In this document: piece by piece, positions 5,083 through 37,396 of the stretch | Layout: every line of letters begins with the position of its first letter | How positions within the stretch are numbered: position 1 is the first letter of the stretch | Source: Opitutaceae bacterium | Lineage (GTDB): Bacteria > Verrucomicrobiota > Verrucomicrobiia > Opitutales > Opitutaceae | Reading direction: 5' to 3' | Assembly (NCBI GenBank): GCA_005786775.1 | Contig: SYDD01000371.1 | Location: 1-37,765 of the forward strand | Length of the DNA stretch: 37,765 nt | Translations under genes and position numbers: made by a program | Notes under the pieces: generated by a model | What the model was told of the DNA's origin: nothing | What the model saw: only the letters and a program-made list of their open reading frames with translations | The model's database searches: none

Positions 5083-5097
5083 CCGCCGCCCCGCCCG

Positions 5098-9561: not shown

Positions 9562-9677
9562 GTGCGCAAGAGGACGGCCCGTCCCCGGCAGGGTCGCGGG
9601 CTGGAGCAGGGCAGGCGCGGAGATTGCTTTCCAAGCGACCCGCTTCCAGCAAGACCTGTCCCGAACCCTGCTGCGCC

Positions 9678-10268
9678 TTGCTCATTCCCCGAGCCCACCT
9701 CGCTTGCCTCTTGGCCGGACTGACGGCCGGATGCCCTCTGCAGGCACAAAGCACGCCGCAATCGCCGGAGGCCGATTGGAGCGTCGAGTCCGGCGTGATC
9801 TGGCAGGTGGGGAAGCTCACGCCGCTGGCGTACACCCTGCTGCCAACCCAGTTGTCCTGGCGCTCGGGGGAGATCCGGGGCCATGATCTCGGGGACGGAT
9901 CGCGGCTGGTGCTCCGGCACCGCTTGACCTTCTTCGCCACGGCAATCCTGAAGGGTCCCGAATCGTCTTATTCCGGAGTCGCCGCCTCCCCCTCCCTTGA
10001 GTGGTGGAATCCCGCGCGCACCCGCTCGTGGTACCTCGGGGCGGGGGGGGGCGCCGGCGCGATCGATTCCCGCGGGGTTCCAGGAGGCCAGGGTCAGGAT
10101 TTTACCCTGAACTGGTTCGTCCGCGCCGGCGCGGAGTGGAGCCCCGCAGCCTATGGCCGCGTCTTCGCCGGCGTCTTTTTCCAGCATCTCTCCAACGGGG
10201 GCCAAACGGATCCGAACCCGGGCATAGACGCCCTCGGCTTCACCCTCGGCTTTTCCTGGCGGCAGTGA
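9678..10268 (+). CDS. PagL-like lipid A 3-O-deacylase / acyloxyacyl hydrolase
   Basis: Signal-peptide-like start, small beta-barrel, PagL-type motif FFQHLSNGGQTDPNPGIDALGFTLGFSW. Start codon uncertain (TTG 9678 proposed). Confidence 0.7.
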   Translation: MLIPRAHLACLLAGLTAGCPLQAQSTPQSPEADWSVESGVIWQVGKLTPLAYTLLPTQLSWRSGEIRGHDLGDGSRLVLRHRLTFFATAILKGPESSYSGVAASPSLEWWNPARTRSWYLGAGGGAGAIDSRGVPGGQGQDFTLNWFVRAGAEWSPAAYGRVFAGVFFQHLSNGGQTDPNPGIDALGFTLGFSWRQ

Positions 10269-10319: not shown

Positions 10320-11546
10320 TCAGGTCCGGCGGTAAGACCAGTTGAACATCGGAACCGCCATCAGGGTCGTGAAAATCGCCATGAACACCATCACCGTGAA
10401 AAAGGTGGGGGTGATGATCCCCTGCTCCAGCCCGATGTTGAGGATGATGAGCTCCATGAGACCGCGTGCATTCATCAGGGACCCGATCCCCATCGCCTCG
10501 CGATGGTTTTCCCCGCACGCCCGCGCGGCGACATAGCAGGCTCCGGCCTTGCCGAGGACGGCGACTGCAAGGGCGAGGAGCGAGATCCCCAGCAGACCAG
10601 CGTCACCGACCAGATCAAAGCGCGTATTCAGCCCGGAATAAACGAAGAACAGCGGGAGCAGCAGCCAGGTTGTGAGCGGTTCAACCCACGCCCGGAGGGA
10701 ATCCGAAAAGGCCCCGCGGGGGACCGCCACGCCGAGAAAGAAGGCCCCGAAAACCGCATAGAGGCCGATGGTGTCCGTGTACCAACAGGCCAACATCAGG
10801 ATCACCAGCACCCAGCCGAAGGCGAAACGCTCGGCGGACTGGTTTCTCGCAGCAAAGGTGGCCAGACCGGCCAGCGCCCTCCGTCCCAGTGTGAAAACCA
10901 ACAGCAGGAAAATGCCACTGCCGACGACCGCCTTGGCCGCGATCCAGGGATCGCCCTTGAGGCTGGCGAGCACCAGCGCGAGGATGCCCCACGCGGCGGC
11001 GTCATCGATCGCGGCGGCCGCGATCGCCAAGGCCCCCACCGTGGTACCGGTCAGCCCTCGCTCGACAATGATGCGCGCCAGCATCGGGAACGCGGTGATC
11101 GCCATCGCCGCGCCGACGAACGGTCCCGCCTGGAGCGCGGTCACCCCGGGACCGAAGAAACCCTCCCGGCCCAGCAGGAAGAGTCCCAGGCCGCAACCAA
11201 GCGCGAAGGGCACCAGAATGCCGGAAGCCGAGATCGCCGCCGCGCTCCGCACCCGCGCGCAGATCAATTCGATCCGGAATTCCAGCCCGACGGTGAACAT
11301 GTAGAGCGCCAGTCCCAACTGCGCCCCCGCGAACAGGATCGGCCGGGACTCTGCGGGGAAAACCGCCGCCTGCAGCGAGGGCAGGAAATAGCCGAACAGC
11401 GAGGGGCCCAGCACCACCCCCGCGATCATTTCTCCGACCACGGGCGGCTGCCCGAGGCGCGCCGCCGCCATCCCCACCAATCGACAACAGGCGAGCACCG
11501 CGGCCAATTGGAGAAAGAAGCGGACCGAAAGCTCGAACGGGGTCAT
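10320..11546 (-). CDS. Cation:proton antiporter (CPA2 family)
   Basis: Multi-TM protein; GQPPVVGEMIAGVVLGPSLFGYFLP, AIDDAAAWGILALV, NARGLMELIILNIGL. Confidence 0.88.
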   Translation of the reverse strand: MTPFELSVRFFLQLAAVLACCRLVGMAAARLGQPPVVGEMIAGVVLGPSLFGYFLPSLQAAVFPAESRPILFAGAQLGLALYMFTVGLEFRIELICARVRSAAAISASGILVPFALGCGLGLFLLGREGFFGPGVTALQAGPFVGAAMAITAFPMLARIIVERGLTGTTVGALAIAAAAIDDAAAWGILALVLASLKGDPWIAAKAVVGSGIFLLLVFTLGRRALAGLATFAARNQSAERFAFGWVLVILMLACWYTDTIGLYAVFGAFFLGVAVPRGAFSDSLRAWVEPLTTWLLLPLFFVYSGLNTRFDLVGDAGLLGISLLALAVAVLGKAGACYVAARACGENHREAMGIGSLMNARGLMELIILNIGLEQGIITPTFFTVMVFMAIFTTLMAVPMFNWSYRRT

Positions 11547-11647
11547 GATTCCGGGCATAGCTGCCCGAATACGCCCTCGGGACAAGGCGTAAGTCTTGCG
11601 CATTGACTCACGTGCGGGCGCCCGCTCGTCTGCGCAAAGCGACCCTG

Positions 11648-12583
11648 ATGATGGCCCCAATCGCAACCGGCGAACCCACCAAGCTGCGGGTGATCTTCGA
11701 CTCCCGTCCCGGTCCCGCGGACCCGGAGGCCCCGAGGATCCCCGCGCGGTGCTTGGCGGGACCGGCGGAGGAGTTGATCTTTCCCGAGGCCGTCGCGGTG
11801 GAAACCAATCCCCGACTCCGGCTATTCCGGGCAGGCGAGTTTCTGGTCGGCCATGCCAGCGAGCCCTTTTCGCGGACCGAGCTGTCCCGGGCTTCGAAAA
11901 CCCTGTACCGGAGGATACTCGCGGCCTGCCGGGGGCGGCATCTGGTTCGCCTCTGGAATTACGTCCCGGACATCAATGGCAGCGCGGGCGGCCTCGAGCA
12001 TTACCGGGCCTTTTGCGAGGGCAGATCCTTCGCGTTCGAGGAGGAGTTCGGTCAGGGCTTCCGGCCCAAGCTGCCCGCGGCCTCCGCGGTGGGCAGCGAA
12101 GGCGACCAGCTCAACGTGATTTTCGCGGCAGTGGACCGGAAACCCGAGCACTTTGAGAATCCCGAACAGGTGCCCGCCTACCTCTATCCGGCCGAGCACG
12201 GTCCCCGTTCGCCGAGTTTCGCCCGTGCCACGGTCGCCGAGGTGGGCGGGGCGAAGTGGGCCTTCATCTCGGGAACGGCTGCCATCAAAGGGCACCGGAC
12301 GTGTTTTCCCGATCAGCTCCTGCCCCAAATCGATTGCACGCTGGAAAACCTGCGGCTGATCTCGAAAGCGAGCGGGTGGGGCGAGGATCTGGGTGCCGCC
12401 GCGGGAGCCACCCGCCATTTCAAGGTCTACCTCCGGCAGCCAAACGACCTCGGGACGACCAGGGATGTCCTGCACCGTCTCCTCGTGCGCCCCGCGGACC
12501 GGGTCACGTACCTGCATGCCGACATCTGCCGGGCGGAGCTGACCGTGGAGATTGAGGCCACCTTGGTAGGGAGCCCGATCTGA
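11648..12583 (+). CDS. Chorismatase (XanB2/FkbO/Hyg5 family; predicted hydroxybenzoate-type product)
   Basis: Family-like motifs LVRLWNYVPDINGSAGGLEHYRAFCEGRS, LPAASAVGS, NPEQVPAYLYPAEHGPRSPSFARA, FISGTAAIKGH, LHADICRAELTVEIE. Start among ATGs at 11603/11648/11651 uncertain. Confidence 0.85.
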   Translation: MMAPIATGEPTKLRVIFDSRPGPADPEAPRIPARCLAGPAEELIFPEAVAVETNPRLRLFRAGEFLVGHASEPFSRTELSRASKTLYRRILAACRGRHLVRLWNYVPDINGSAGGLEHYRAFCEGRSFAFEEEFGQGFRPKLPAASAVGSEGDQLNVIFAAVDRKPEHFENPEQVPAYLYPAEHGPRSPSFARATVAEVGGAKWAFISGTAAIKGHRTCFPDQLLPQIDCTLENLRLISKASGWGEDLGAAAGATRHFKVYLRQPNDLGTTRDVLHRLLVRPADRVTYLHADICRAELTVEIEATLVGSPI

Positions 12584-12771
12584 GCGGCAAGCCGGGGGGC
12601 ATTCGGGAATTCAAATGCCGGGCGCCGCCCGACACGACGGCGGAAGCGGAGACGTCGCGGGCAAAACTGACCTAAACCGCCTGGCGAACTTCCGCCTCCA
12701 GAGACGCTTGCCTGAACCCAGGCGGGCGTAGAGGCTGTCGCGTGACGGCCTCCCCTTGATCGCATGACAGG

Positions 12772-13794
12772 GTGTACAAGCAGGGATCCGCGCTGACTCC
12801 GCTCATGACAGGAATAGGGCTCCTCACTTTTGTGACTTTCTTTACGAACGTTATCGGAGTCCTAGCGCGTGGAGTCGCCTCTCGACTCCCCCTCCTCCTT
12901 CTGGCCGGCCTGCTCGCCTGCTTCGGCTTGTCCGGTTGTGTCGTTCTGCGCGTCGCGCCCTTTCCGGTGCTCCCCGTGGACGGGTCGGCGGAGGACGGCA
13001 ACTCAGCGCGGATGATCTTCGAACGCTGCCTGGCCGCACATGGAGGCGACCTGCGGCGGCATCCCGGTGACCTCAATCTGGCCACGGACGGCCACTGGTT
13101 CGCGCTGATCCAACGCATCCAACCCCTGGTGACCGATTCCGCGTTCCGCGTCCGGTCCGAGGAACGCTATCGCCCTGCGGAGGGACTCTATGTGGTGCGG
13201 CACACCGGACCCTCGGGGGTCAAGCAGGTGGTGCGACGGGCGGGCAGGATCGAAGCGGTGCGCTACAACGGGGAATTGGAGCGGGATCCCGCCAAGCTTA
13301 GCGCCACCGCGATGACCAATGACGCCTTTCGGATGTTTCATTTCGGACCGACCTTCTTCCTTGAGCGCGTGAACGCCTGGCGGCCGTTGCCGGAGGCGGC
13401 CGAGGGCGGGCGGCGCTATCACCGCATCATCGGGGCGCTGACGCCCGGGTTCGGCGATGCCGCCGAGGACCGGGTGGTGCTCTGGATCGACTTCGAAACC
13501 TTCCGCCTTTTTCGCGTTCACATGACCCTGAACGGGTTTGAAACGACCAAAGGCGCCCACGTGGACACGACGTTTCTCGACTACCGTGAAGTGGCGGGCT
13601 TCCTGCTCCCCACCCGTTTCCACGAGCGCGTCCTCGGGCCCCTGCACCTGGATGCACACACCTGGTGGACCACCGGACTGGATCATGATCGCGGCTGGGA
13701 GGCGGCCCAGGTGACCGGCGATGCATTCACGGGCGTCGCCGCACCGCCGGCGCGACCCATCGTCCCGGCGAAAGCACCGGCGGGGACGCCCTGA
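12772..13794 (+). CDS. Putative lipoprotein, LolA/LolB-like fold possible
   Basis: Hydrophobic leader with lipobox-like LSGC; AAHGGDLRRHPGDLN pattern common in LolA-like secreted proteins. Start uncertain. Confidence 0.55.
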   Translation: MYKQGSALTPLMTGIGLLTFVTFFTNVIGVLARGVASRLPLLLLAGLLACFGLSGCVVLRVAPFPVLPVDGSAEDGNSARMIFERCLAAHGGDLRRHPGDLNLATDGHWFALIQRIQPLVTDSAFRVRSEERYRPAEGLYVVRHTGPSGVKQVVRRAGRIEAVRYNGELERDPAKLSATAMTNDAFRMFHFGPTFFLERVNAWRPLPEAAEGGRRYHRIIGALTPGFGDAAEDRVVLWIDFETFRLFRVHMTLNGFETTKGAHVDTTFLDYREVAGFLLPTRFHERVLGPLHLDAHTWWTTGLDHDRGWEAAQVTGDAFTGVAAPPARPIVPAKAPAGTP

Positions 13795-13834
13795 TCCGAC
13801 CGCGCGGGCGCGCGGGAAGCCGAAGGAGGGCGGG

Positions 13835-15187
13835 CTAGACGGCAGCGCCAGCCAAGAGCTGACGCAGTCGTCCGGTATCCGTCTTGCCACGCGCCGTCAG
13901 AGGGAACTGCGCCAGCACCAGGAAGCGTTTGGGCACTTTCCAGGAGGCCAGCCGAGTCTGGAGATCGCGGCGCAGCTGCCCGCCGGACAAGGAGGTGGCC
14001 ACGATCGCGACGAGGGCGTCGGGGCGGTTCGGCTCGGGAGCCACGAAGGCGTCCTTTACTCCTACGGTGTTCCGGAGGGCGCGCTCCACCTCCGAGAGAT
14101 CGAGCCTTCGTCCGGCAATTTTGACCATTCGCCCAGCCCTGCCCAGCAGCAGGATTTCCCCGTTCGGTTTGCGCCGGGCCCGGTCCGCGGGCCGATGCGC
14201 CCCCACCCCCGCGCGTCCGCGCCGGCGGTTGCCCAAAGTGAGGACCGCGCGACTCGAGACGCTAAACCTGCCCGCGGGCTCCCAGGAAAGGTACACTCCC
14301 GGCAAGGGCAGGCCCACGTTTCCGTCCGAGGTCGCGGCCTCGCCCGCCGGATCGTACGAGATGCCGCCAGTTTCGCTCGAACCGTAAAAGTTGTGCACCC
14401 GTCGGGCGAAGCGCTCATAAAAAGCCTGGGCGACCTCCCGGGCCAAAGGCGAACCCGCGGAAATGACCAACCGGAGCGGGGCCAGCTGGTCCGGCGCCAC
14501 CTCGGCTTCGACCAGGGCGCGGAGGATGGCGGGGACCGCCGGAAACACGGACGGCCGCCAGCGTTCGACGGCGCGCGCGATGGCCTGGGGCAAAGGCGAC
14601 GCCTCGCAGACCACGCCCGTGCCTTGCAGCACCAGAGGAAGCACCAGGTTGCCCATCCCGTAGGAGTGGCCGAATGGAATGATGCCGAGGTTGAGATCGC
14701 GCCCGGTGATCCCCATCCCCCGGCAGATCTGCCGGCCGTCCGCCATCATCTGGGCATCGGTGAAGGGCAGCGCCCGCGGGAGTCCGGTGGAACCCGAGGT
14801 CAATTTGACGAGCCGGCGGCCATCGCGGGCCGGCTTACGCCCGAGGGTCGCCGGGCGCCAGCCCTTGGCCGACCAAAGCCTCGCGGCACCCGCGGTGGCA
14901 GCCAATGCCGCCTGCGCCGCGGGCGGCTCGCCGGCATCGAGGGGCACGATGACCGCATCCGCCTTCAGCAGCCCCAGGAACACGCGCCACCAATCGCCCC
15001 CGTTGGGCTCACACATCGCCACCGGTTGGGCGGCCAGTCCCGCGCCGTGTTCCAGCGCCCAACGGTCCCCCAGAAGATCCAATTGCCGGCGGGTGAATGC
15101 CCCCCCCGCGGCCGGGTCGATCAGGGCGATTGCGTCAGGTGCGGCGCGCACGGTGCGGCGCCAGGCATGCAGGAGGCTGGCGCTCAT
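13835..15187 (-). CDS. AMP-dependent acyl/aryl ligase
   Basis: LVKLTSGSTGLPRALPFT (P-loop-like A-motif), NFYGSSETGG, GRMVKIAGRRLDLSEVE, C-terminal RGKTDTGRL. ATGA overlap with the upstream gene. Confidence 0.88.
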   Translation of the reverse strand: MSASLLHAWRRTVRAAPDAIALIDPAAGGAFTRRQLDLLGDRWALEHGAGLAAQPVAMCEPNGGDWWRVFLGLLKADAVIVPLDAGEPPAAQAALAATAGAARLWSAKGWRPATLGRKPARDGRRLVKLTSGSTGLPRALPFTDAQMMADGRQICRGMGITGRDLNLGIIPFGHSYGMGNLVLPLVLQGTGVVCEASPLPQAIARAVERWRPSVFPAVPAILRALVEAEVAPDQLAPLRLVISAGSPLAREVAQAFYERFARRVHNFYGSSETGGISYDPAGEAATSDGNVGLPLPGVYLSWEPAGRFSVSSRAVLTLGNRRRGRAGVGAHRPADRARRKPNGEILLLGRAGRMVKIAGRRLDLSEVERALRNTVGVKDAFVAPEPNRPDALVAIVATSLSGGQLRRDLQTRLASWKVPKRFLVLAQFPLTARGKTDTGRLRQLLAGAAV

Positions 15188-17526
15188 GGGCGGCCGGGAC
15201 CCGCGAACGTCTCCGCTTCAATCACGACGAGGGCAGTGAGTACGATCAGGCTGACCGTGAGGCCGAGCGCGCTCACGACGGGGATGCCACTGAAGGCGAG
15301 GACCCCGAAGGAAGCCGCGGTCGAAACCGCGGAGAGACGCACCGGCACCGGGGGCGACGAGGCGGTCGCGGAGGTTTCGGCGGAGAAGATCGCGTAGTTG
15401 TGCGACAGGCAAATGCCCAGGAAGGCACCCAGCAGGTGGAAAAGGTTGAGCTGCTGCCCCGCGATGCCGAAGGCCCCGAAGATCAGGAAACACGAGCTGG
15501 CGGGAATCAACGCGATGCGCAGTCCGCGGCGAGAGGGGTAAATGCAGAACACGCTGGCGATCACCAGCCCCAGCCCGGCGAGGCTCAGCCAGAGCGCCGA
15601 CCAGCGGTACCGCCGGAAGAGTTCATTGAGCGAGCCGAGCTGGTCGAGCCCGATGGTGCCCAATTCCGCCGGCGGCGCGGCAGGGCCGCGCGCCGCGGTT
15701 TTGGTCAGGAACCAATACGGCGAGGAGCGGAGGTTCGCCAGCAACGCGAAAGGTCCGCTCAACTTCTGGTCAATCTCGGCCACCAGAGCCTGGTAATCGC
15801 CTTCGGCCGCCTGCCCGAGCATTTGACGCCAATCCTCCAGGAAGGGCTGGAAGTAGTCGGGGGTCATCCCTTTGCGGCCCAGCGCCTGGCGGAATTCGGC
15901 CGGGAAAGCCTCAAGGGAGGCCAGGTGCCCGCGCAGTGCCTTCACCGCCTGCTCCGTGGGAACGATCAGACCCAGGCTCACCCCGCGACTCCGGTCCCCG
16001 CCGTTCGCGATCCACGCGTGAAACTCCTCCAGCTTGCGACGGGCCTCGGCCAGGGAGGGCGCGGCCGTGAGAAAGACCGATCCATCCGCTTGATCCCCGA
16101 ACAAGGACCGGACGGCGGCGTCATTCGCCCGCAGGTCGTCCGCCGGCAGGTCCAGCTGCCGGATATCATCACGCCATGTCACGAACCAGGGGCCCGCGAG
16201 AGCCACCGCCGCCGCGCAGGCGGCCAACGCGCGGCACAAATTCCTGCCGCGCCGCGAGCGGAGGAATCCCGGCGGTGGGGGAAAGCACCGCGCCTCGAGC
16301 CGGGGCCGTTCCAGCTGGGCGAAATACAGCATCGCCGCGCCGAGGGCGCAGAGGAGACCGGCCGCGACGAACACCCCGAGCTGACGAATGAGCGGCAGGT
16401 CCGAAAAGAGCAGCAGCAGGAAACCGAGGGTCGTGGTGAGGCAGCTGGCCAGCAGGGAGGGCAGCAGGCGTCTCAACTTCCGGCCGTAGGGTTCGCCCTC
16501 GTAGGCGTCCGACTGCATGAAAAGGTAGAAGCCATAGTCGATCGCCACGCCGCCGAGCACGGAACCGAGCACAAAGACGAGGATGTGGGTGCGCTCGAAG
16601 ACCAGGGTGGTGACCGTCCAGGCCCCCAGCAACGAGAGCAGCATGACCGGCACCAGGTGGAGCAGCTGCAGGATCCGCCGGACGAAAACGAGGCTGCACA
16701 GGACGACCGCGACGAGCGAGAAAAGGTTCAGCCACCGGACTTCCGACTCGATGCGCGCACGGCTGGCCGCGGCGAAGCGATTCAGTCCGGTCCATTTGAG
16801 CTCCAGCCCTTCGCGATCGATCCCGGCGGCCACCCGCGCCTGTTCGATGGCGGCGAAGACGGGACTCTGCCCCTCCTCGCTGAAGGGGGAGCCGCGCATC
16901 CGGGCCCAGATCAGGCCCTCCCGGCCGGAACCCCCGAGCGGGAGCATCTTTTCGCCCTCATGGGCCAGCGTGGGCAGCAGGAGCAGAGGGTCGCGCGACA
17001 GCAGCTCCTGCATGCCAACCGCCTCGGGGCGTGCAAGGAAACGCTCCAAGTCGGCGGCCGCACGCTCTGCCATCCAAGCCGGAAAACCGGCCTCGTTCCC
17101 TGGGCCTCCATTGTACTCCCGGTGCATGCGGGCGAGCCAGGCAGGAAGCAGCCACCGCAGACGGTGCTCAAACAATGCCCGACCGAGAGCTTCGTCCGCG
17201 GCTGGGACCCCGAGCGCGACCGCCTCCGCAATCGCCGGTGAACGCCGTAACTCATCGGCGAACGCCGTGGCCAAGGCGCCCAATGAGCGCTGGGGAGCGT
17301 CCCGATCTGCCAGAGCAAAGAGCAACACCTGCGCCTGCGGGCCTTCCGCGAGCGATCGCATCACGAGCACCTCCCGGGTCTGCTCCCCGGGGGGGATCAG
17401 TTCGAGGACACTGGTTGAAATCTTCGCCGCATAGTCCAGGCAGCCCAGCCACGCCGCGCTGCCGAGCGCGAACGCGACGAGCACGGCGCGAACCGCAAGC
17501 CTGGAGGTGATTCCAGCCCTGATCAT
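15184..17526 (-). CDS. MMPL/RND-family exporter
   Basis: About 780 aa, two blocks of TM helices around soluble loops (FVLGSVLGGVAIDYGFYLFMQSDAYE; GAFLGICLSHNYAIFSAETSA). Confidence 0.85.
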   Translation of the reverse strand: MIRAGITSRLAVRAVLVAFALGSAAWLGCLDYAAKISTSVLELIPPGEQTREVLVMRSLAEGPQAQVLLFALADRDAPQRSLGALATAFADELRRSPAIAEAVALGVPAADEALGRALFEHRLRWLLPAWLARMHREYNGGPGNEAGFPAWMAERAAADLERFLARPEAVGMQELLSRDPLLLLPTLAHEGEKMLPLGGSGREGLIWARMRGSPFSEEGQSPVFAAIEQARVAAGIDREGLELKWTGLNRFAAASRARIESEVRWLNLFSLVAVVLCSLVFVRRILQLLHLVPVMLLSLLGAWTVTTLVFERTHILVFVLGSVLGGVAIDYGFYLFMQSDAYEGEPYGRKLRRLLPSLLASCLTTTLGFLLLLFSDLPLIRQLGVFVAAGLLCALGAAMLYFAQLERPRLEARCFPPPPGFLRSRRGRNLCRALAACAAAVALAGPWFVTWRDDIRQLDLPADDLRANDAAVRSLFGDQADGSVFLTAAPSLAEARRKLEEFHAWIANGGDRSRGVSLGLIVPTEQAVKALRGHLASLEAFPAEFRQALGRKGMTPDYFQPFLEDWRQMLGQAAEGDYQALVAEIDQKLSGPFALLANLRSSPYWFLTKTAARGPAAPPAELGTIGLDQLGSLNELFRRYRWSALWLSLAGLGLVIASVFCIYPSRRGLRIALIPASSCFLIFGAFGIAGQQLNLFHLLGAFLGICLSHNYAIFSAETSATASSPPVPVRLSAVSTAASFGVLAFSGIPVVSALGLTVSLIVLTALVVIEAETFAGPGRP

Positions 17527-17585
17527 GTTCCACCCGGGCGGTCGCACGAGGCTTCGCGGCTGGCCCGGAAACGCGGGGCGCGGGC

Positions 17586-17618
17586 CCCGTGCCGGCCCCA
17601 GGCCTCGGCCGGCACGGG
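17586..17618. repeat. Perfect 12-bp inverted repeat between lolA-like and MMPL genes
   Basis: CCCGTGCCGGCC-ccaggcctc-GGCCGGCACGGG. Confidence 0.8.
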
Positions 17619-17673
17619 AGGCGCAGAACCAGGAAACGAAAGGGATAAGGGGGCGCGCATCTTCAGAGAGAGA

Positions 17674-18366
17674 TCACCTGAAGAACTGCCGCAACGTGTC
17701 CGCGGTGAACAACAACCCATCCCGCGCATCGGTGATCTCGATCTCGATCCGCTGGGCAGCCGACCTGCCCATCGTGATGCGCCGCATCGCGGTGCCCTCT
17801 CCGGCAAGACCGATTCGCCCGACGATCCCAGCCAGGGCCTCTTGGCGCGGGCGCAGCAGGAGGGACCAGGTTGATCCCTCACGTCGGCCGTGAATCTCAA
17901 AGTCCTGCCCCAGCGCCGCCAGGTCGACCTGCAGCAGTCTGGCCAAAGTCGAGGCCGCGGTACGGATCCGGTCGTCCGGCGGGGCCTCGCGCTCCTCCCC
18001 CACCTCATTCCGTAACAGCAACCCCTTCCCATCCACGATCACCACGTTCCGGGCGGGAGCCAAGTAACTCAGGCTGAGTCCTCTTCCCGGGGAGATGCGG
18101 ATCTCGCCGCTCAGCACCACGGGATCGCGCCGGAAAGGGAAATACCTGCGTTCCTCGAATTTGGCTTGCCGGTTGCCCGGCGAGGCGAGCCCCGCGAACA
18201 AAGCCCTCCAGTCCGCGTCCCGCGCAGGCTCGATGCGGACAAAACCCTGCTCCGCCCCTTCTCCTACCGGCGGTTGCGCCGAGGCCAGGACGGCTGCGGC
18301 AGCCAGCAGCAGCGCGAGCGGGCGCGCGGCGGGAGCCCGGGGAGCAGACCGCTGGATCGTGTTCAT
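17674..18366 (-). CDS. LolA-like outer membrane lipoprotein carrier family protein
   Basis: Signal peptide; F-E-E-R-R-Y-F-P-F...LSGEIRISPGRGLSLSYLAPARNVVIVDGKGLLLRN is LolA-like. Start at ATG 18366, 4-bp overlap with the GT2 gene. Confidence 0.75.
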   Translation of the reverse strand: MNTIQRSAPRAPAARPLALLLAAAAVLASAQPPVGEGAEQGFVRIEPARDADWRALFAGLASPGNRQAKFEERRYFPFRRDPVVLSGEIRISPGRGLSLSYLAPARNVVIVDGKGLLLRNEVGEEREAPPDDRIRTAASTLARLLQVDLAALGQDFEIHGRREGSTWSLLLRPRQEALAGIVGRIGLAGEGTAMRRITMGRSAAQRIEIEITDARDGLLFTADTLRQFFR

Positions 18367-19139
18367 CGAGAAAGTCCTCCGCGCCGCGCGCCGCGCGCCC
18401 GCCACACCGCAATCCATCGCCACAGGAAGAGCTGGGTGAGGAGCCGGACGTGAAGCGAGCAAAGCCTGACGTTGTCGCGCACGTACTTGAAGTGGGAGAC
18501 GCCCCCGTCTTCCGGCGCCAGGTAGCGGCAGGGCGCGGCCAGGTTCAAGAGGGGAACCCCTCGCCAAGCCATCCGGACCGCCACCTCCGGGTCAAAGTCA
18601 AAGCCGCGCGCGAACCGGGTCTCGGCCAAGGCACGCCGGAGGGCGTCCGCCGGATAGACGCGGAATCCAAACAGCGGATCGTCGATTCCCGGTCCCAGGA
18701 TTTCGGCCCAGGCCAGCCAGACGCTCAGCTTGCGCCCGTGGAGTCTCACCCGGGGAGCCTCGGGGCCGAAAACCGGCCGGCCCAACACCAGAGATTCCGG
18801 GCGAGCCGCGGACGCCTCCATGAAGGGCCCGATCTGGTGCGACGGATGCTGGCCGTCCGCGTCCAAGGTCAGCACGTGGGTGAAGCCAGAGGCCAAGGCG
18901 GCTGCAAGGCCGGTTTCGATCGCGGCACCCTTGCCGCCGTTCCGCGGCCGGACGAGCACGCGCACCCGGGGATCCCGCTCCGCCAGCCGCAGCGCGGCAT
19001 CCACACTTCCATCGGTGCTGCCATCGTCGACCACCCAGACCGGGCTCCATTCCTCCAGCGCCGAGAGGAGCGTGGTGACCAGACGGTTCCCGGCGTTGAA
19101 GGCGGGGATGAGTACTAGGTGGGTCGTTGAGGCTGGCAT
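18363..19139 (-). CDS. Glycosyltransferase family 2
   Basis: LIPAFNAGNRL, VWVVDDGSTDGS, RNGGKGAAIETGL, LTLDADGQH. Confidence 0.92.
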   Translation of the reverse strand: MPASTTHLVLIPAFNAGNRLVTTLLSALEEWSPVWVVDDGSTDGSVDAALRLAERDPRVRVLVRPRNGGKGAAIETGLAAALASGFTHVLTLDADGQHPSHQIGPFMEASAARPESLVLGRPVFGPEAPRVRLHGRKLSVWLAWAEILGPGIDDPLFGFRVYPADALRRALAETRFARGFDFDPEVAVRMAWRGVPLLNLAAPCRYLAPEDGGVSHFKYVRDNVRLCSLHVRLLTQLFLWRWIAVWRARGARRGGLSR

Positions 19140-19276
19140 GAGGGCAAGGGCCGGGGATCACGCTTGCCCGGCGGGCACCGCCCACTGGGCCGGCAGGAAC
19201 GGGTGGGCGGCCGGCCGGGGTCCGGCGGCAACACAACCTAAAGGATCACGCGCGGACGTCTCTGGGGGTTCTGACT

Positions 19277-20074
19277 TCACTCCTCAAGTTGGACAAGGGG
19301 CCGCGCAGGGGCCGTGAGGGGAAAGGGTGAGGCGAGCCCGGTGGAGAGCGCAAGCGCGACCCGCTCCGTCAGATCCCGGGCATTGCAGGCCTGCGCGGAA
19401 GCCAGTTCCGGGCCCAAGGTCAGATCGACCTGCGCCGGGAAAGCCGGCGGACGCCACCACGGCCAGCCCTTGGGCAGCAAATCCCGGGGGGCGTGAATGA
19501 GGATCACCCGGATGGGAACGCGAGCCCGGGCGGCGATCAGGGCAAACCCGGGGCGCAATGGGTTCAGGCGGACGTCCTGCGCGGTGCGGGTCCCTTCGGG
19601 AAAGATGAGCAGCGAGCGACCGGCTTTGATCCGGTCGGTGACTTCCCGGAGCAAATCCAAGCCACTCCCCCCGGAGGCATAGCCCGCCATCAGGGCCGCG
19701 GGACCGAGAACCGGATTCCGCATCACGGCTGGCTTGAAGATGCAGATCGTGTCCGGGAGACGGGAGAGCAGGAAGGTGGCGTCCATGAGTCCGGGATGGT
19801 TCGAGACATAGACCGCGGGTCCTGCCATCGCTTGAGCCGTGAAGCCGTGGAACCGGACGCGGACCAGACGAGTGAATCCCAGCCATCCGCACCACGCGAC
19901 AAAAAGCCTTCGGATCAAGTCGCGGACCAGCGCCCCCAGACGGGGCCGGGCGCCCAGCAGCAACAGCGGGGCGCAGAGCGCGTTCAGGACCAGCCCCACC
20001 AGGGCAAAGATCGCCCAGGAGAGCAGGTTCACCGGGTAGTGGTACAATCTCGCCAGTCTCCGCGGAATCTTCAT
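19277..20074 (-). CDS. 1-acylglycerol-3-phosphate-like acyltransferase (PlsC family)
   Basis: VYVSNHPGLMDATFLLS (NHxxxxD variant), LLIFPEGTRTAQD. ATGA overlap with upstream gene; start at 20074. Confidence 0.85.
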   Translation of the reverse strand: MKIPRRLARLYHYPVNLLSWAIFALVGLVLNALCAPLLLLGARPRLGALVRDLIRRLFVAWCGWLGFTRLVRVRFHGFTAQAMAGPAVYVSNHPGLMDATFLLSRLPDTICIFKPAVMRNPVLGPAALMAGYASGGSGLDLLREVTDRIKAGRSLLIFPEGTRTAQDVRLNPLRPGFALIAARARVPIRVILIHAPRDLLPKGWPWWRPPAFPAQVDLTLGPELASAQACNARDLTERVALALSTGLASPFPLTAPARPLVQLEE

Positions 20075-20991
20075 CGGCCGGTGGCTGGGAGCGGGGCGAA
20101 GTTGAACCAGAGGAAGGGATCCGCGCGCAGCTGGTCCTCGAGTCGCGCCAGAAACTCCTGGAAGTGGGCGCGGGCCCGCCCCAGATTCTCCGCCTTGCCG
20201 GACCCGTCGGGGCGGAAAATGGGCGAGCTGTGGACGCGCGTGCACCCCGGGCCGGCGGGAAGCCCGACCGCGAGGACCACGGGCAGGCGAAAGAGGATGG
20301 AAAGGTGATAAATCGACAGCGGGAACGACCTGCGCGCACCCAGGAACAGGAATTCCTCGGCCTTCGATCCGAACTCGGTCCGGTCGCATTTCATGGCGAC
20401 GGAGCCCCCCGCGGCGATCGCATCCTTGATGGCGAATAGTAGGTTTTCGGGACGGTTCACCCAGATGTAGCTGACCCACTGACGGAATTGGCTGCCCAGA
20501 ATCTCGGTATCGAGAGAGTTCCCGACGCGCTGGCGCACCATGAACACTTTCCGCCTTTCCTGGGGACCGACGAGAAAGCCGATCAGGTCGGAATGCCCGA
20601 CATGAAAGGACCCCAGGAGGGCCTGTTCGCCCGAGAACATCAACTCGTGGAACCCGAGCGCGTCGGGGGCCAGCACTCCGCGATGCGGACGGCCACGCGC
20701 GATGCGCAAGCGCAGCATCAGGAACTCCTCAAAGGCGAAAAAATGGCGCAGAACTTCCCGCGTGCTGGGCGGTCGGGCCAGGATCGTCTCCAAATAGGCC
20801 TCGGAGTGGCGCCGTCGATCGGACAGCAGCGGCACAGCGACCAGGGTTCCCAGCCAGCGCAAGGGTCGAAAGATCAGTTCCGGCAAGATCGCGTCGCAGG
20901 CGATAAGAAAACGGTAGCCCCAGGCGGGGCCCGGGTTGCGGACAGGCGCCGCGTTTTCCGGAGAACCCATCCGCTCCATGACCCCGCTCAC
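20071..20991 (-). CDS. LpxL/HtrB-like lipid A biosynthesis acyltransferase family protein
   Basis: GSFHVGHSDLIGFLV, VGNSLDTEILGSQFRQW, AAGGSVAMKCDRTEFGSKAEEFLFLGARRSFPLSIYHLS. Confidence 0.78.
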   Translation of the reverse strand: MSGVMERMGSPENAAPVRNPGPAWGYRFLIACDAILPELIFRPLRWLGTLVAVPLLSDRRRHSEAYLETILARPPSTREVLRHFFAFEEFLMLRLRIARGRPHRGVLAPDALGFHELMFSGEQALLGSFHVGHSDLIGFLVGPQERRKVFMVRQRVGNSLDTEILGSQFRQWVSYIWVNRPENLLFAIKDAIAAGGSVAMKCDRTEFGSKAEEFLFLGARRSFPLSIYHLSILFRLPVVLAVGLPAGPGCTRVHSSPIFRPDGSGKAENLGRARAHFQEFLARLEDQLRADPFLWFNFAPLPATGR

Positions 20992-21647
20992 AACCAGGAG
21001 AGACCGACCAGGAGTCCGGGAGCAGCCACCAGTTCGAGGTCACGGCGATCCCGCAGGCCGTCAAAGAAGGCCCCGAGCCCAAGGTCCGACATGGGCACAT
21101 CATCGGGAACCGGGGTGACGCCGAACCGGGCGAGCGCCCCGTTGGGCTCGCGGCGAAGGTCGATCGCCAGGGCGAAACTGCGATCGCTGGCGATGCCCCG
21201 CTCCAGCAGCCAGGTGCCCTTCTCCTCGCCCGCGCACAGGAGCACCCGCGTCGCCGGGGAGATGAGCGCGGGGATGAGGGCGCCTCCGACCAGATGCCGC
21301 CGGCCCGTCAGCGGCAGGAACTCCCGGACCGGGGACTGCCGTCCGATCATCGCCTGCTGCACGGCACTGGGATGGATTGAGGTCTGGAAGAGCGTCGGAC
21401 TGGGAGTGGGGAAGCTCTCCAGATATCCCTCGAGCGCGCAGGTTTCCCCATAAGCGGAGGCGTAGATGAGGGTGTCCTCGGGCTGAGGCGACAAGGCATC
21501 GAGGGTGGAACTGACCAGCAGGCCCAGCTGTGTCATCCGCCGGGTCGCTCCGCGGGGAAAGCGATCGCGGACCCTTTCCCGGGTGGCGGCCAAGTCCTCA
21601 TGACTCGCCTCTACCAGGCTGATGGCGTGGAGGTACTGCTCAATCAT
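20988..21647 (-). CDS. Beta-ketoacyl synthase-like chain-length-factor type protein
   Basis: Short (219 aa) KS-like protein, RRMTQLGLL, YASAYGETCALEGYLESF, PTLFQTSIHPSAVQQAMIG; typical of aryl-polyene-type loci. Confidence 0.75.
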   Translation of the reverse strand: MIEQYLHAISLVEASHEDLAATRERVRDRFPRGATRRMTQLGLLVSSTLDALSPQPEDTLIYASAYGETCALEGYLESFPTPSPTLFQTSIHPSAVQQAMIGRQSPVREFLPLTGRRHLVGGALIPALISPATRVLLCAGEEKGTWLLERGIASDRSFALAIDLRREPNGALARFGVTPVPDDVPMSDLGLGAFFDGLRDRRDLELVAAPGLLVGLSWL

Positions 21648-22767
21648 GGCTCAGAAGAAACGCCGCGTGGGCGCCGCCGAACGCGTTGCTGGCACACACG
21701 ACGCCATCCATTTCCCGGGTGGAAAACGGTTGCAGGGCCACGCCAGCATGAAAGCTGGGCTGCCCTCCGCCGACGGTGCCCGGCGCCCGTCCGTCCCGGA
21801 TCGACGAACAGGCGATCGCAAGCTCCACCAGGCCGCAGCTGCCGAGGGTATGCCCGAGGCTCCCTTTCCAGCCCACCAGTCCGGCCTCCGGAAAGATCCC
21901 AGCAAGCGCATCGGCTTCCAGCCGGCCAGCCTCGAGGGTGCCGGTGCCATGGCCCTTGAGCCAGAGCCGCATGCCGGCGGCCGCGGATTGCAGGGGCAAC
22001 AGGCACGCGGAGAATCCCTGACCGTCGGCCTGATTGGCGGTGAAGTGGTGCATCTCGTTATGTACGGACTGCGCCCGGATCACGAAATCCCCTCCCCGCT
22101 TGCTCAGGACGGCGAAGGCAGCCCCGTCGCCTAATCCGATCGAGCCGTTGGGCCGGACCGCGTAGGGCGCGGGGAAGCCGCCATTCAGAATCCGCAGGGC
22201 ATGAAATCCACCCGCCACGAAGGGGCTCAGAAAGTCGAAGGAGAAGACCAGGACCCGTTCGGCCATCCCGGAGTGCAAAAGGCGCGAGGCGTGCAGGATA
22301 CCCAGGTGGGCCGAGACACAGGCGTGAGAAATGGTCGTGAAATTCGGCCCCCAGCCGAGCTGGCGGGCGAGCCAGTCGACGCACAGGTGGGGGGTGCCAT
22401 AGGCAAGATGCGCGGCGTCGCCCGTCCGGCGATAAGCGTAGAGGCTGCCGACGCCGAAATTACTACTGGAGATAACGACCGGCCGCCGGGCAGTTCCCCA
22501 TCCCTCCCCGGGCACCTGCGCGGCGAGGGCCTCCAGCGCAGGCAGCCAGTTCGGCGGGGCCGACTCCTCGAAGGAGCGTTCCCGGAGCAACGCCAAGGGA
22601 ACCAGTTCTCCGCCGGCGGATCCGAGGACCGCCTGGGGAGTCAACGCGACCCTACCCGCCAACAGGGCCCGCACGGTCTCCCCGGTACCCCCGAAGGCGG
22701 TGAGGCATTCGCACGCCTCAATCCTCACTTCAGTCGTGAACGGAGGGCTCGGGATCAAGGTCGGCAA
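21640..22767 (-). CDS. Beta-ketoacyl-ACP synthase
   Basis: Active-site Cys in TISHACVSAHLGI, His in KGHGTGT, Lys/His in GWKGSLGHTLGSCG. Confidence 0.88.
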   Translation of the reverse strand: MPTLIPSPPFTTEVRIEACECLTAFGGTGETVRALLAGRVALTPQAVLGSAGGELVPLALLRERSFEESAPPNWLPALEALAAQVPGEGWGTARRPVVISSSNFGVGSLYAYRRTGDAAHLAYGTPHLCVDWLARQLGWGPNFTTISHACVSAHLGILHASRLLHSGMAERVLVFSFDFLSPFVAGGFHALRILNGGFPAPYAVRPNGSIGLGDGAAFAVLSKRGGDFVIRAQSVHNEMHHFTANQADGQGFSACLLPLQSAAAGMRLWLKGHGTGTLEAGRLEADALAGIFPEAGLVGWKGSLGHTLGSCGLVELAIACSSIRDGRAPGTVGGGQPSFHAGVALQPFSTREMDGVVCASNAFGGAHAAFLLSHD

Positions 22768-22773
22768 GGAGGC

Positions 22774-23049
22774 TCAGCGCGGAAGCTTGGCCGGATCCGC
22801 GCGCGCGCGAATGAACTCCGCGAGGTGGGCGATGCTCGCCAGCGCCGCGCGCGACTCCTCGCTGCTGCCGATCTTGATCCCGAACTCCTTCTCCAGAGTG
22901 ACGACCAGCTCGAGGGCATCGATCGAATCAAGATTCAAACCCGAGCCGATCAGCGGTTCATTGTCGGCGATCTGATCCGGCGTAATATCCTCGAGCTTGA
23001 GCGTGGCGACGACCAGCGATTTGAGGCGGGACACGAGTGGATCGGGCAT
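22774..23049 (-). CDS. Acyl carrier protein
   Basis: GSGLNLDSIDALELVVTLEKEFGIKI phosphopantetheine site. Confidence 0.9.
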   Translation of the reverse strand: MPDPLVSRLKSLVVATLKLEDITPDQIADNEPLIGSGLNLDSIDALELVVTLEKEFGIKIGSSEESRAALASIAHLAEFIRARADPAKLPR

Positions 23050-23165
23050 GGCGGGATAGATCAGCCAAGAAAGGATGGGGGCGGCGTGCAAGCCCGGTTA
23101 AGCGCGCGAGGCGGGGGGAAGCCGCGGGGGATTCCGGAGCGTGATGTCCCACCCGCGGCCCGCAG

Positions 23166-24437
23166 TCAGGTTCGGCCCGCGTGCAGGACGTGGCACACGT
23201 TGCTGCCGCCGAAACCACTGCTGTTGTTCAGGGCGACCGTCGGGCGCGCGGCGAGACTTTCCCGGGGCAGATCCAGACCCTCGCAGGCCGGATCCTGCAC
23301 GCGAAGATTGGCGTTGCCGGGGATGAATCCCTCGTCGAGGCACAGCGCGCAAAAGGCCGCCTCCATCACTCCAGAGAGGGAGAGAGGATGTCCGGTGATG
23401 CCCTTGGTGCTGCTGACACGCGGACGCGCCCCGGCCGCGCTGAAAACCGCCCCGAGGGCGATCGCCTCAGAGCGGTCACCGGCGGGCGTGGAGGTGGCGT
23501 GGGCGCTGACGTAGTCCACCGCTGAAGGCCCAAGCCCGGCGTCCGCCAGCGCCCGGCGCATCGCCTGCGCCAAACCAGCCCCCTCCGGGTGCGAGATCGC
23601 CACGTTGTGCCCGTCGGCGGCCTGACCCCAGCCGATGACTTCGGCGTAAACCTTCGCGCCCCGGCGATCGGCGGCCTCGCGGCTTTCCAGCACCAGACAA
23701 ACCGCGCCGCCGGCGGCCACAAAGCCATCCCGGCCGTGATCGAACGGGCGGGAGGCAGATCGCGCATCCGGATTGACCGAGAGAGCGCGCATTCCCGCGA
23801 AGGGCAAAACCGTCTCCGCGTTCACCTCCTCCGCCCCGACCACCAGCATCCGCTCCTGCCGCCCCAGCCTGATCTCGTCGAGTGCGAAGCCCAGCGCATG
23901 GCTCGAGGAGGCGCAGGCGGCGGCGAAGCCCCCGACCGCGCCGCGGATGCCGAAGTGGGCGGCAAGATTGAAGTTCACCGTCCCGGCGATCGAAGCCACC
24001 ACCCCCATCGGGTTGCCTCGCTCACCCCGCACCGCGTGCATATGCGCCAGATGATGGTGCAGCAGGAACGCCGAACCGGCGGAAGCACAGTACAGTCCGG
24101 TCGCGCCATCCACGAGATCCGCCCGCGTGATGCCCGCGTCCTCGATCGCCTGCTCCGCCGCGCACAGCGCGTAGAGTCCGTGGGGCGCCAAGCTCCGCAA
24201 GGTCTCGCGCGCCAGACCGGCGTAGCGCTCGGGAAAGCGCCAATCCCGCCAGCGAGGGGATTCCACCTCGAACCCCTTGACCGTGCCGGCCACCTTGACC
24301 GGAAGATTCGGGTTCCCGAGGAACTGGACGGGGACGATGCCGGACCGCAGTTCGCGGAGACTGAGCGAAACTTCTTTCCGGTCGTTGCCGATGCTGGTGA
24401 TGAAGCCGATGCCGGTGATGGCCGCGCGCCGCTTCAT
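23166..24437 (-). CDS. Beta-ketoacyl-ACP synthase (FabF-like)
   Basis: MKRRAAITGIGFITSIGN; GFAAACASSSHALGFA (Cys), SAHATSTPAGDRSEA (His), SSTKGITGHPLSLSGVMEA (Lys/His). Confidence 0.93.
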   Translation of the reverse strand: MKRRAAITGIGFITSIGNDRKEVSLSLRELRSGIVPVQFLGNPNLPVKVAGTVKGFEVESPRWRDWRFPERYAGLARETLRSLAPHGLYALCAAEQAIEDAGITRADLVDGATGLYCASAGSAFLLHHHLAHMHAVRGERGNPMGVVASIAGTVNFNLAAHFGIRGAVGGFAAACASSSHALGFALDEIRLGRQERMLVVGAEEVNAETVLPFAGMRALSVNPDARSASRPFDHGRDGFVAAGGAVCLVLESREAADRRGAKVYAEVIGWGQAADGHNVAISHPEGAGLAQAMRRALADAGLGPSAVDYVSAHATSTPAGDRSEAIALGAVFSAAGARPRVSSTKGITGHPLSLSGVMEAAFCALCLDEGFIPGNANLRVQDPACEGLDLPRESLAARPTVALNNSSGFGGSNVCHVLHAGRT

Positions 24438-24811
24438 TCGGGGCGAGGCTCCCGGCTGGCAAGCTTGGCGCGGACGAACTCCCGGAGGTCCGCCACGGAG
24501 CTGACCCCGAGGATTTCGGCGTTCGAGATGCTCACCTCAAAGAGCTCCTCCACAAAGAAGATCATCTCCGTGATCGCGAAGGAATCAAACCCGAGGTCGG
24601 CGACCAGGGCCGATTGATCGGAGATGGGGACGCCCTTCCGGGGCATATGCTCAGCCACGATGGCGAGCACGACCGTGTCCGCAGCCGCCGGATCCCCGGT
24701 CTCGCGCAGGCGACGGAAGGCCTCCCGGACCTCCTCCGGAAAATCACACAGGGGCTCTTTGCGGACCGTATTGCTCGAAGAGGGCTCCGGGAGTGAGGGG
24801 CTTTTTTCCAT
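24434..24811 (-). CDS. Acyl carrier protein-like protein
   Basis: ALVADLGFDSFAITEMIFFVEELFEVSI; 4-bp overlap with the KS start. Confidence 0.88.
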   Translation of the reverse strand: MEKSPSLPEPSSSNTVRKEPLCDFPEEVREAFRRLRETGDPAAADTVVLAIVAEHMPRKGVPISDQSALVADLGFDSFAITEMIFFVEELFEVSISNAEILGVSSVADLREFVRAKLASREPRPE

Positions 24812-24827
24812 ATGACACGAAGGCCCC

Positions 24828-26396
24828 CTAACTTGATTCCACGGAGAGCGTCAAGGGCAGCGTCGGGGCGCGCGTTTCCTTGGCGCGGGAAAACCACGAA
24901 CGCCAACCTTCCCGCAACTCCAGCCGCAGCCAAGAACCCAGGAGGCCCACGACCCGGAAGGGCAATCGGAGGTTGAACTCGTAACTGGTGAACCCGAAGA
25001 ACACCCGGTCATTCCGCTGGCCCCACGTTCCCCGCCTCCGCCGCGACTCGGCAATGGCCGCGAAACGGCGGTTGTAGCAGGACATCAGTCGGAAAGCCCA
25101 CGCGGACCGCGGATGGGTGAAAGGCGGATGCTCCAGCGATTGCTCCCCACGCAGGAACGCCGGCGCCACCATCCCCAAGTAATACAGTCCCAGATCAAGC
25201 CGGAAGGCCAGCGTCATCAACTCCTGATCACCCATGTAGAAATACTTGTCCCGGTAAACAGCGTCGAACCACCGCTGGTAGCTCAGCGCGAACTCCGCGT
25301 TGTGCCGGCTTACCCGGGGGGGAACCGGACGGCCCCGCAAGCCATCGCGAATCAGGGCGGCGGCCGCGGTCGCGGAGTACGCGACAAAGTCCATCCCCGG
25401 CGAATAGAAGGGATCCATGAAGCCAGCTGCGTCACCCACCAGAACCGCGCCGTCGGTCGCGAAAGTCGAACTGCTGTAGGCCAGGTTGCGGCGGAAATGC
25501 ACGTCGCCTTCGCGCCAGTGCGCTTCCGCGAGCATCTCCCTTGCCGCGGGGTGCTGGTCGAGCATCGCCTTCAGCCGGGATCCCAGCGAGGGCCCCGGGG
25601 GCAGCTCCGTGATCCGCTGGTCATAGACCACGCCGACGCTGACATCCCCTCCCTTGAGCGGGATGAACCAAGCCCACCACCCGAGACCCGCGATATGATT
25701 GGTGGCGGTGGAGCGCAAACCTTTCACCTTGCCCATCCACGCCGGATATCGCGCACCCAATTCCTGACCATCCAATGACTTGACGCCTGACCACCGGCTC
25801 CAGCAAGCGGCAGTGGGGTGGGCCCGATTCTGCACCAGCCAACCCTCCTGCCGCGCCAGCAGGGCCGCACTCCCGGAAGCATCCACCACCCACCGGGCGT
25901 GGGCCACCTTGGGCATCGCGTCCGCGCCCTCCCAACTCACGGTTTGCCTTCCGCCCTCGACCAACTGGACGCGACGGATCCGCACGGACCGCCGCGCCAC
26001 CGCACCTTCGCCCACCACTTTGGCTAGGAGGTGCTCGTCGAGAACCGAACGGTCCACCTGGTAGCCCGGGAGACGCACATTGTAGCGCGGCCCCGTCTCG
26101 CTGCACTGGTCGATCGACCGGGCACGCTCATTGGTGAACCAGAAACGCATTCCCTGCTTGGGAAGGTGGCTCTCCAGCAGGTGCCCGGTGAGACCAAGTA
26201 CTCGCCCCAGGAAGAACGCGCTGATCTCTACCGTGGATTCGCCAACCCGGCGTGAAAAACGGGCGGAGCGCTCCAGGATCAGGATGCGAAGCCCCGGGTC
26301 GCGTCGCAGAAGCAGGGAGGCGGTGGCTGCCCCTGCCAGGGAGCCGCCGATCACTATCACATCCCACTTTTCATCCGGACTGGTCGCAGTCTCCAT
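24828..26396 (-). CDS. FAD-dependent monooxygenase/halogenase-like protein (tryptophan-halogenase superfamily)
   Basis: FAD-binding VIVIGGSLAGAATASLLL, KQGMRFWF (candidate catalytic Lys), GWWAWFIP matching the halogenase WxWxIP motif, GDAAGFMDPFYSPGMDF. Start ATG 26396 or GTG 26402. Confidence 0.78.
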   Translation of the reverse strand: METATSPDEKWDVIVIGGSLAGAATASLLLRRDPGLRILILERSARFSRRVGESTVEISAFFLGRVLGLTGHLLESHLPKQGMRFWFTNERARSIDQCSETGPRYNVRLPGYQVDRSVLDEHLLAKVVGEGAVARRSVRIRRVQLVEGGRQTVSWEGADAMPKVAHARWVVDASGSAALLARQEGWLVQNRAHPTAACWSRWSGVKSLDGQELGARYPAWMGKVKGLRSTATNHIAGLGWWAWFIPLKGGDVSVGVVYDQRITELPPGPSLGSRLKAMLDQHPAAREMLAEAHWREGDVHFRRNLAYSSSTFATDGAVLVGDAAGFMDPFYSPGMDFVAYSATAAAALIRDGLRGRPVPPRVSRHNAEFALSYQRWFDAVYRDKYFYMGDQELMTLAFRLDLGLYYLGMVAPAFLRGEQSLEHPPFTHPRSAWAFRLMSCYNRRFAAIAESRRRRGTWGQRNDRVFFGFTSYEFNLRLPFRVVGLLGSWLRLELREGWRSWFSRAKETRAPTLPLTLSVESS

Positions 26397-26398
26397 AG

Positions 26399-26422
26399 TC
26401 ACTCAGTACGTTCAGCGGACAC
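26399..26422 (-). other. Candidate 7-codon minicistron (MSAERTE) upstream of the halogenase gene
   Basis: GGAGG-N7-GTG TCC GCT GAA CGT ACT GAG TGA, then CT-ATG of the halogenase frame. Confidence 0.3.
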
Positions 26423-30396: not shown

Positions 30397-30478
30397 CGTG
30401 GCACGGTGCGGCGGCGGGGAGCGGGCGGCAATTTCAATTGCGGGCGGCGGCGGGCCGGGGCTTCCTTGCCGACCCGCG

Positions 30479-32554: not shown

Positions 32555-32581
32555 ACGCCGGCGGCTGTTAATCTTGCTCCG

Positions 32582-33301: not shown

Positions 33302-33303
33302 GC

Positions 33304-33618
33304 GTGCCGTCACGCCGGGAACACTTTGCAGCCCTCGTCTCTCGCCAGCCGGGGAATGAGCTCTTCCGGTTCAGCCTCGCACAGGCACTGGTGGCCGAAG
33401 GTCGGGTGGAGGAGGCGCTGGTCCACTTCCAAACCTGTGCGGAGGGTAAGGCGGACTGGATGATGCCGCGGATTCTATTGGGCAAGGTCCTCCTCGGTTT
33501 GGCCCGAACGGCAGAAGCGCGGCCGTGGCTGGAGTCGGCCCTCCGGCTGGCGGTGGACCAGCACCATGAGGAGCCGGAGCAGGAACTGCGCGCGCTACTC
33601 GCGGACCTCCGGACTTAG
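33304..33618 (+). CDS. Small TPR-like protein
   Basis: Helical repeat pattern NELFRFSLAQALVAEGRVEEALVHFQTCAE; GTG start 2 nt after the PP2C stop. Confidence 0.7.
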   Translation: MPSRREHFAALVSRQPGNELFRFSLAQALVAEGRVEEALVHFQTCAEGKADWMMPRILLGKVLLGLARTAEARPWLESALRLAVDQHHEEPEQELRALLADLRT

Positions 33619-33784
33619 CCCCAAGAAGGCACCACGGCGGATCCCGAAGGTGTAAAACCCACTCGCCCCTCACCCCAGACGCGAGATCTGGGGCTGGAGT
33701 AAGGAGTGCCCCTTATCCCCCGAAACCGACCGGCCACGGGCACTAAGGGGAGGCATCGCATTCCGCCCTTAAGGCCCGCGGGGT

Positions 33785-37321: not shown

Positions 37322-37396
<75 letters not shown>

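Follow-up and report, generated by a model that had tools for sequence, protein, structure and literature searches.

How could an aryl polyene be completed by a gene cluster that encodes neither a ketoreductase (KR) nor a dehydratase (DH)? This question is raised by a locus of Opitutaceae bacterium (GCA_005786775.1) on contig SYDD01000371.1, whose 37,765 nucleotides, hereafter the window, are a whole contig of a metagenome-assembled genome (2.96 Mb, 74% complete). In this locus, a chorismatase gene on the plus strand faces a minus-strand operon (26396 to 13835, 12.6 kb) of twelve genes that overlap or almost touch, the widest gaps being 137 and 126 bases. We consider it probable that this is an Opitutaceae locus for a xanthomonadin-type aryl polyene, with processing of the beta-carbon supplied in trans. 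The first-pass annotation had proposed a xanthomonadin/aryl-polyene-like locus, and this stood as regards gene families, the ketosynthase (KS) with its chain length factor (CLF), and synteny, but it overlooked that KR and DH are missing from the operon.

Parts of the locus

The chorismatase is given first, followed by the operon in its own gene order.

11651-12583, plus strand: chorismatase, Hyg5/XanB2-like (PF21168, 76.8 bits; cut-off 27 bits)
24828-26396, minus strand: FADH2-dependent halogenase-like flavoprotein, the operon's first gene (PF04820, 60.2 bits)
24434-24811, minus strand: acyl carrier protein (ACP) ACP1 (PF00550, 29.2 bits; DSF motif)
23166-24437, minus strand: ketosynthase KS1, FabB/FabF-like, with a putative ApeR role (PF00109/PF02801, 107/107 bits)
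22774-23076, minus strand: acyl carrier protein ACP2 (PF00550, 32.2 bits; DSI motif)
21640-22767, minus strand: ketosynthase KS2, ApeO-like (profile; Pfam C-terminal half, 32.5 bits)
20988-21647, minus strand: half-size CLF, ApeC-like (profile and predicted fold)
20071-20979, minus strand: LpxL/LpxM-fold acyltransferase, compare the acyltransferase part of ApeJ (predicted fold)
19277-20074, minus strand: PlsC-type lysophospholipid acyltransferase, ApeD-like (PF01553, 44.9 bits; start set from relatives' loci)
18363-19139, minus strand: family 2 glycosyltransferase (GT2), compare the glycosyltransferase part of ApeJ (PF00535, 83.5 bits)
17674-18369, minus strand: LolA-like periplasmic carrier, ApeL-like (LolA_3, PF19574, 23.1 bits, barely above the cut-off of 23 bits; position conserved)
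15184-17547, minus strand: MMPL/RND-type exporter, ApeM-like (PF03176, 36.9 bits; position conserved)
13835-15187, minus strand: AMP-ligase, a putative aryl-acid:ACP ligase, ApeH/ArcT-like (PF00501, 136.9 bits)

Gene calling, family searches and predicted folds together bore out every element that the first pass had named, with Pfam matches at these places for both ACPs, the AMP-ligase and the PlsC, GT2, LolA and MMPL proteins. The two ketosynthases, described there as having intact Cys/His/Lys-His motifs, indeed carry C175/H313/K345/H350 (KS1) and C150/H273/K301/H306 (KS2), and these residues are invariant in all aligned orthologues. In profile searches against the PDB, KS1 was best matched by 7PPS (3.8e-93) and also matched ApeR (7F27, 1.6e-73). 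KS2 matched the ApeO side of both solved ApeO-ApeC complexes, 7F28 and 6QSP (7F28_B, 6.3e-29; 6QSP_A, 2.3e-21), and the half-size CLF matched the ApeC side (7F28_A, 3.3e-5; 6QSP_B, 7.4e-5), chain identities being taken from PMC8358021. The half-size CLF had no Pfam match; its predicted model (predicted local distance difference test, pLDDT, 84.3) gave ApeC (6QSP_B) as the first-ranked Foldseek match (E 5.1e-9), so that the KS-like CLF of the first pass is borne out by profile and by fold.

Neither Pfam nor a PDB sequence search gave a match for the LpxL-like protein, and this call, invisible to sequence searches, was settled by the predicted fold: the AlphaFold model (pLDDT 88.6) matched LpxM (5KN7, 2.2e-11) and PatA (5OCE, 2.7e-11) in Foldseek. 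Benzoate-CoA ligases were among the top full-length PDB matches of the AMP-ligase, whose orthologues are 38-57% identical; a suspected frameshift in this gene was ruled out by alignment. No sigma-70-like site was found in a promoter scan.

Primer and proposed pathway

The profile of the chorismatase matches Hyg5 over the whole length (5AG3, 3.6e-72), ahead of FkbO (4BPS, 2.1e-64), and the protein scores 173.8 against TIGR04444, below the cut-off of 325. Hyg5 is a chorismatase that forms 3-hydroxybenzoate (3-HBA), and Gly173, Gly240 and Cys327 in its numbering are the residues diagnostic of CH-II (PMC7170507). In the chorismatase of the window, G208, C293 and E300, which are invariant in 21 orthologues, correspond to Hyg5 G240, C327 and E334. 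Compared with Hyg5 and FkbO, it retains the catalytic Glu together with the Hyg5-type Gly and Cys, the equivalents of which are lacking in FkbO, and differs by an Ala (A146) in the place of Gly173. Moreover, UbiC was found in none of 16 family genomes, so that the chorismatase is the sole hydroxybenzoate-forming enzyme found in them. The chorismatase would thus be predicted to make a hydroxybenzoate primer and, as to ring position, 3-HBA is favoured over 4-hydroxybenzoate. Family searches, matches to solved structures, synteny and literature support this primer and the possible halogenation, both of which had been suggested in the first pass.

In the proposed pathway, the chorismatase would convert chorismate to hydroxybenzoate, which the AMP-ligase would load onto an ACP, and malonyl units would be added by KS1 and by the pair of KS2 and half-size CLF. 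Beta-keto reduction and dehydration would fall to enzymes from outside the locus, the simplest candidates being the housekeeping FabG and a FabZ, to give the aryl polyene, whose ring the flavin halogenase may optionally halogenate. The chain would be attached to a (glyco)lipid by the PlsC, LpxL-fold and GT2 proteins; LolA and MMPL would carry the product to the outer membrane, where it may shield the cell from light and oxidants. The steps beyond gene identity, as well as the protective role, are drawn from the ape and xan/arc systems (PMC8253772, PMC8358021, PMC3949708, PMC3691225).

Conservation and relation to known loci

The host had been considered Verrucomicrobia-like, in agreement with the named relatives, which are Opitutaceae and other Opitutales. 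Of 20 relatives selected by their chorismatase, nearly all have operon genes no farther than 10 kb from it, and most have almost the whole operon there. Furthermore, among 80 named loci found with KS2 as bait, many of them on truncated contigs, we detected CLF in 78, ACP2 in 75, LpxL in 73, GT2 in 66, PlsC in 63, MMPL in 58, AMP-ligase in 52 and chorismatase in 46, and the last two are at most 1.5 kb apart in 45 of the 46 loci having both. Since the same gene order recurs in dozens of genomes, the locus is not a chance association. Among the family genomes searched for both genes, nine hold chorismatase and KS2, ten neither, one KS2 alone and none chorismatase alone (Fisher p 1.2e-4, a value that overstates the evidence because the genomes are related). 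The cluster can also be split, since KS2-CLF-LolA stands apart from the remaining genes in L156 and in G378 (C2, C3), where it is on a different contig from MMPL-AMP-ligase-chorismatase. The locus is present in genome G396, its halogenase, chorismatase and AMP-ligase included; the yellow isolate Congregicoccus parvus ASA1 (Opitutales), which we tentatively take as G396, thus apparently carries it. Colonies of ASA1 go from whitish-yellow to yellow, and the authors who described the strain found an arylpolyene cluster, which may be this locus, with antiSMASH.

In comparison with the xanthomonadin and arcuflavin loci (Xanthomonas pig/xan, Azoarcus arc and the Lysobacter yellow locus), the window shares the chorismatase, AMP-ligase, ACP, KS with adjacent half-size CLF, acyltransferases, GT2, LolA and exporter, the halogenase being shared with Xanthomonas and Azoarcus. 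In Azoarcus, the arcuflavin genes are split over two loci and include arcG (Na/H antiporter), arcH (KR), arcI and arcS (DH) and arcN (deacetylase); an antiporter like arcG is also present here, and a polysaccharide deacetylase like arcN is seen in the window's relatives only. Unlike these loci, the window has no KR (arcH) and no DH (arcI, arcS), and it has two KS, a divergent chorismatase and a Verrucomicrobiota host. With the ape cluster of E. coli, Xenorhabdus and Acinetobacter it shares the ApeO-ApeC type KS/CLF, a second KS, two ACPs, AMP-ligase, lysophospholipid acyltransferase, LolA, MMPL, and the glycosyltransferase and acyltransferase functions that are fused there as ApeJ, whereas family searches did not find ApeQ (KR), ApeI/ApeP (DH), ApeK (thioesterase), ApeB (methyltransferase), ApeG or ApeN; chorismatase and halogenase, in turn, distinguish the window from ape. 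In brief, the half-size CLF with KS, the AMP-ligase family with ACPs, the acyltransferase/glycosyltransferase set and LolA with MMPL agree with an aryl polyene locus, chorismatase and halogenase agree with the xanthomonadin sub-type, and a linked KR (ApeQ/ArcH) and DH (ApeI/ApeP, ArcI/ArcS) are absent.

Some clusters of the order depart from this composition. Ereboglobus-type clusters (L192, L167 from Ereboglobus, G421 and G080) keep ACP2-KS2-CLF-LpxL-PlsC-GT2-LolA-MMPL, and no chorismatase, AMP-ligase or halogenase was found near them; a B12-radical SAM gene follows MMPL in L192 and G421. Ereboglobus-type organisms are anaerobes, and the composition of their clusters hints that primer or tailoring differs there. 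Relatives' clusters repeatedly contain B12-binding radical SAM genes of two kinds (e.g., L042:10815-12305 and L031:4878-6401); the first kind never occurs together with the halogenase in 35 full-length loci (0/13 versus 6/22, p 0.06), and the outgroups G120 and G369 hold both. Beside the chorismatase, relatives repeatedly carry VTT/DedA-like, polysaccharide deacetylase and PAP2 genes (L035:10482-11258, L036:10711-12128), none of which was found in the window.

Next to the locus, the following features were identified, of which the exchanger was absent from the gene list of the first pass.

7123-9561: TonB receptor
9850-10268, plus strand: PagL-like outer-membrane protein, possibly accessory, the C-terminal part of the open reading frame 8979-10268 (PF09411, 52.1 bits, domain about 9969-10253)
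10320-11666, minus strand: Na+/H+ exchanger, KefB-like, probably accessory (PF00999, 166 bits)
12805-13794, plus strand: lipoprotein of no known family, with a lipobox (no Pfam match)

A gene 69% identical to that of the exchanger adjoins the chorismatase in G018, and others occur in G045, G060 and G295; the plus-strand reading frame 10503-11606 was rejected as a gene, since it matches no family and the opposite strand encodes the exchanger. PagL-like homologues lie near the cluster in G123, G274, G404 and G429 and in 8 of the 80 KS2-bait loci. The lipoprotein gene, which sits between chorismatase and AMP-ligase, had no match in the relatives' loci examined and among those is present in this genome only; a role as a LolB-like acceptor would be a mere guess. 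The flanks (43-6702 and 28162-37396) are ordinary, with the IF-2 N-terminus, NusA, a DHH/CBS/DRTGG protein, a PAS-SpoIIE phosphatase, a P-type ATPase, a DinG-like helicase, a PP2C, a short-chain dehydrogenase/reductase (SDR) and tRNA-Met.

Reduction, dehydration and halogenation

Several observations weigh against the proposed reading. An SDR profile derived from the genomes' own FabG/SDR proteins was run over 37 regions and the 80 KS2-bait loci (more than 100 clusters, some genomes being in both sets), and a KR was found inside none; SDRs occurred only in the flanks of several loci, and motif scans agreed. No DH was found in the window or in any cluster of its own family, and neither a thioesterase nor a methyltransferase was recognised in the operon. 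FabA/FabZ-type domains number three in nearly all family genomes, operon or not, and the FabZ-type copy number does not increase with the operon (3.0 versus 3.2); a single FabG scores above the curated cut-off in each of 15 genomes, again operon or not. In addition, the chorismatase departs from one of the three diagnostic CH-II residues (A146 for Gly173), the halogenase is present in only 21 of the 80 KS2-bait loci, with some copies truncated, and a pigment of another kind could account for the yellow of ASA1. KR and DH genes belong to the characterised aryl polyene and xanthomonadin loci (PMC8253772, PMC3949708, PMC3691225) and the operon of the window has none, so that our reading is least certain at the polyene step. 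Purified Acinetobacter baumannii FabG failed to replace ApeQ in vitro (PMC8041823); consequently, the missing KR is a real biochemical gap.

The candidates considered for the missing steps were rejected. The SDR of the window (about 36403-37245) is 10 kb off, of PRK06180/PRK08263 type and not conserved beside the operon; the SDR near the split loci G378, L156 and L160 is outside the cluster, amid unrelated genes; and an extra FabZ as operon-linked DH is ruled out by copy number. ApeI-like matches were weak and in most genomes correspond to the dehydratase part of one long frame, presumably an LpxC-FabZ fusion. In outgroup Opitutales (G129, G231, G369, G120, Cerasicoccus, Pelagicoccus and others), an ApeP-like DH lies between MMPL and AMP-ligase, which usually abut in the window's own family. 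Such clusters in Cerasicoccus, Pelagicoccus and Opitutales metagenome-assembled genomes otherwise share the order KS2/CLF, acyltransferases, GT2, MMPL and AMP-ligase, have a chorismatase too where the contig reaches, and likewise have no KR. It appears that the linked dehydratase was lost in the window's family, and a linked KR is present in none of the lineages examined.

The aryl polyene could also be made with a dedicated KR and DH at an unlinked locus instead of the housekeeping fatty-acid enzymes, an arrangement that we regard as conceivable, if rather doubtful. Split loci do exist (Azoarcus arc; G378), each genome has between several and about 20 FabG-like SDRs with lower scores, every one a possible KR, and the failure of A. 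baumannii FabG points the same way; however, none of the order's clusters examined has a KR, not even those that retain the DH, and operon-bearing family genomes have no extra FabA/FabZ or ApeP-like gene. A product other than a polyene, namely a short, unreduced or partly reduced, lipid-anchored aryl polyketide, would suit clusters in which KR is found in none and, within the own family, DH in none. We judge it very improbable, given that the KS/CLF belongs to the ApeO-ApeC type known from polyenes, that cyclase and aromatase genes were not recognised in the operon, and that an ApeP-like DH has been retained in the outgroup clusters, so that the ancestral product was probably dehydrated.

Within the aryl polyene reading, ring halogenation of the pigment is predicted as a possibility. 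The halogenase-like flavoprotein of the first pass has an FAD site, the motif WAWFIP (WxWxIP) and a conserved K80, features of which the motif and the Lys mark halogenases, and its best PDB profile matches are CmlS and other FADH2-dependent halogenases, including PltA. In NCBIfam, the flavin monooxygenase QhpG came narrowly on top (88.8 bits, far under its cut-off of 240), followed by the CmlS halogenase (87.5 bits). That match, together with the absence of the gene from many relatives, leaves some limited room for a hydroxylase or a relic and a non-halogenated pigment, as in Lysobacter, against which stand the motif and Lys, the PDB profile matches and the halogenases of the Xanthomonas and Azoarcus loci. 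In 18 of the 80 loci there is a further halogenase-like flavoprotein (PF04820), with about 27% identity to that of the window and usually upstream of the first (e.g., L051:9571-10944 in G018); the window is without it.

Arylpolyene calls in Opitutales have already been published; the linkage to a chorismatase and the missing KR and DH were not found described in the open-access literature consulted. Few bacterial specialised metabolites are as widespread as aryl polyenes, whose characterised members depend on a dedicated KR and DH. In this context, we tentatively propose, at somewhat under an even chance, an order-wide line without its own KR (in Opitutaceae, also without DH) that either borrows FabG/FabZ or makes a new type of aryl polyketide lipid in which reduction is partial or absent. 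In the case of borrowing, FabG and FabZ would, in contrast to the FabG of A. baumannii, have to accept aryl-polyenoyl-ACP. The conserved, KR-less Opitutales version would allow a direct test of the ways in which type II polyene synthases can borrow reduction and dehydration or do without them. It would also be a candidate explanation, at the level of genes, for the yellow of cultivable Verrucomicrobiota, and would supply new variants of halogenases and chorismatases.

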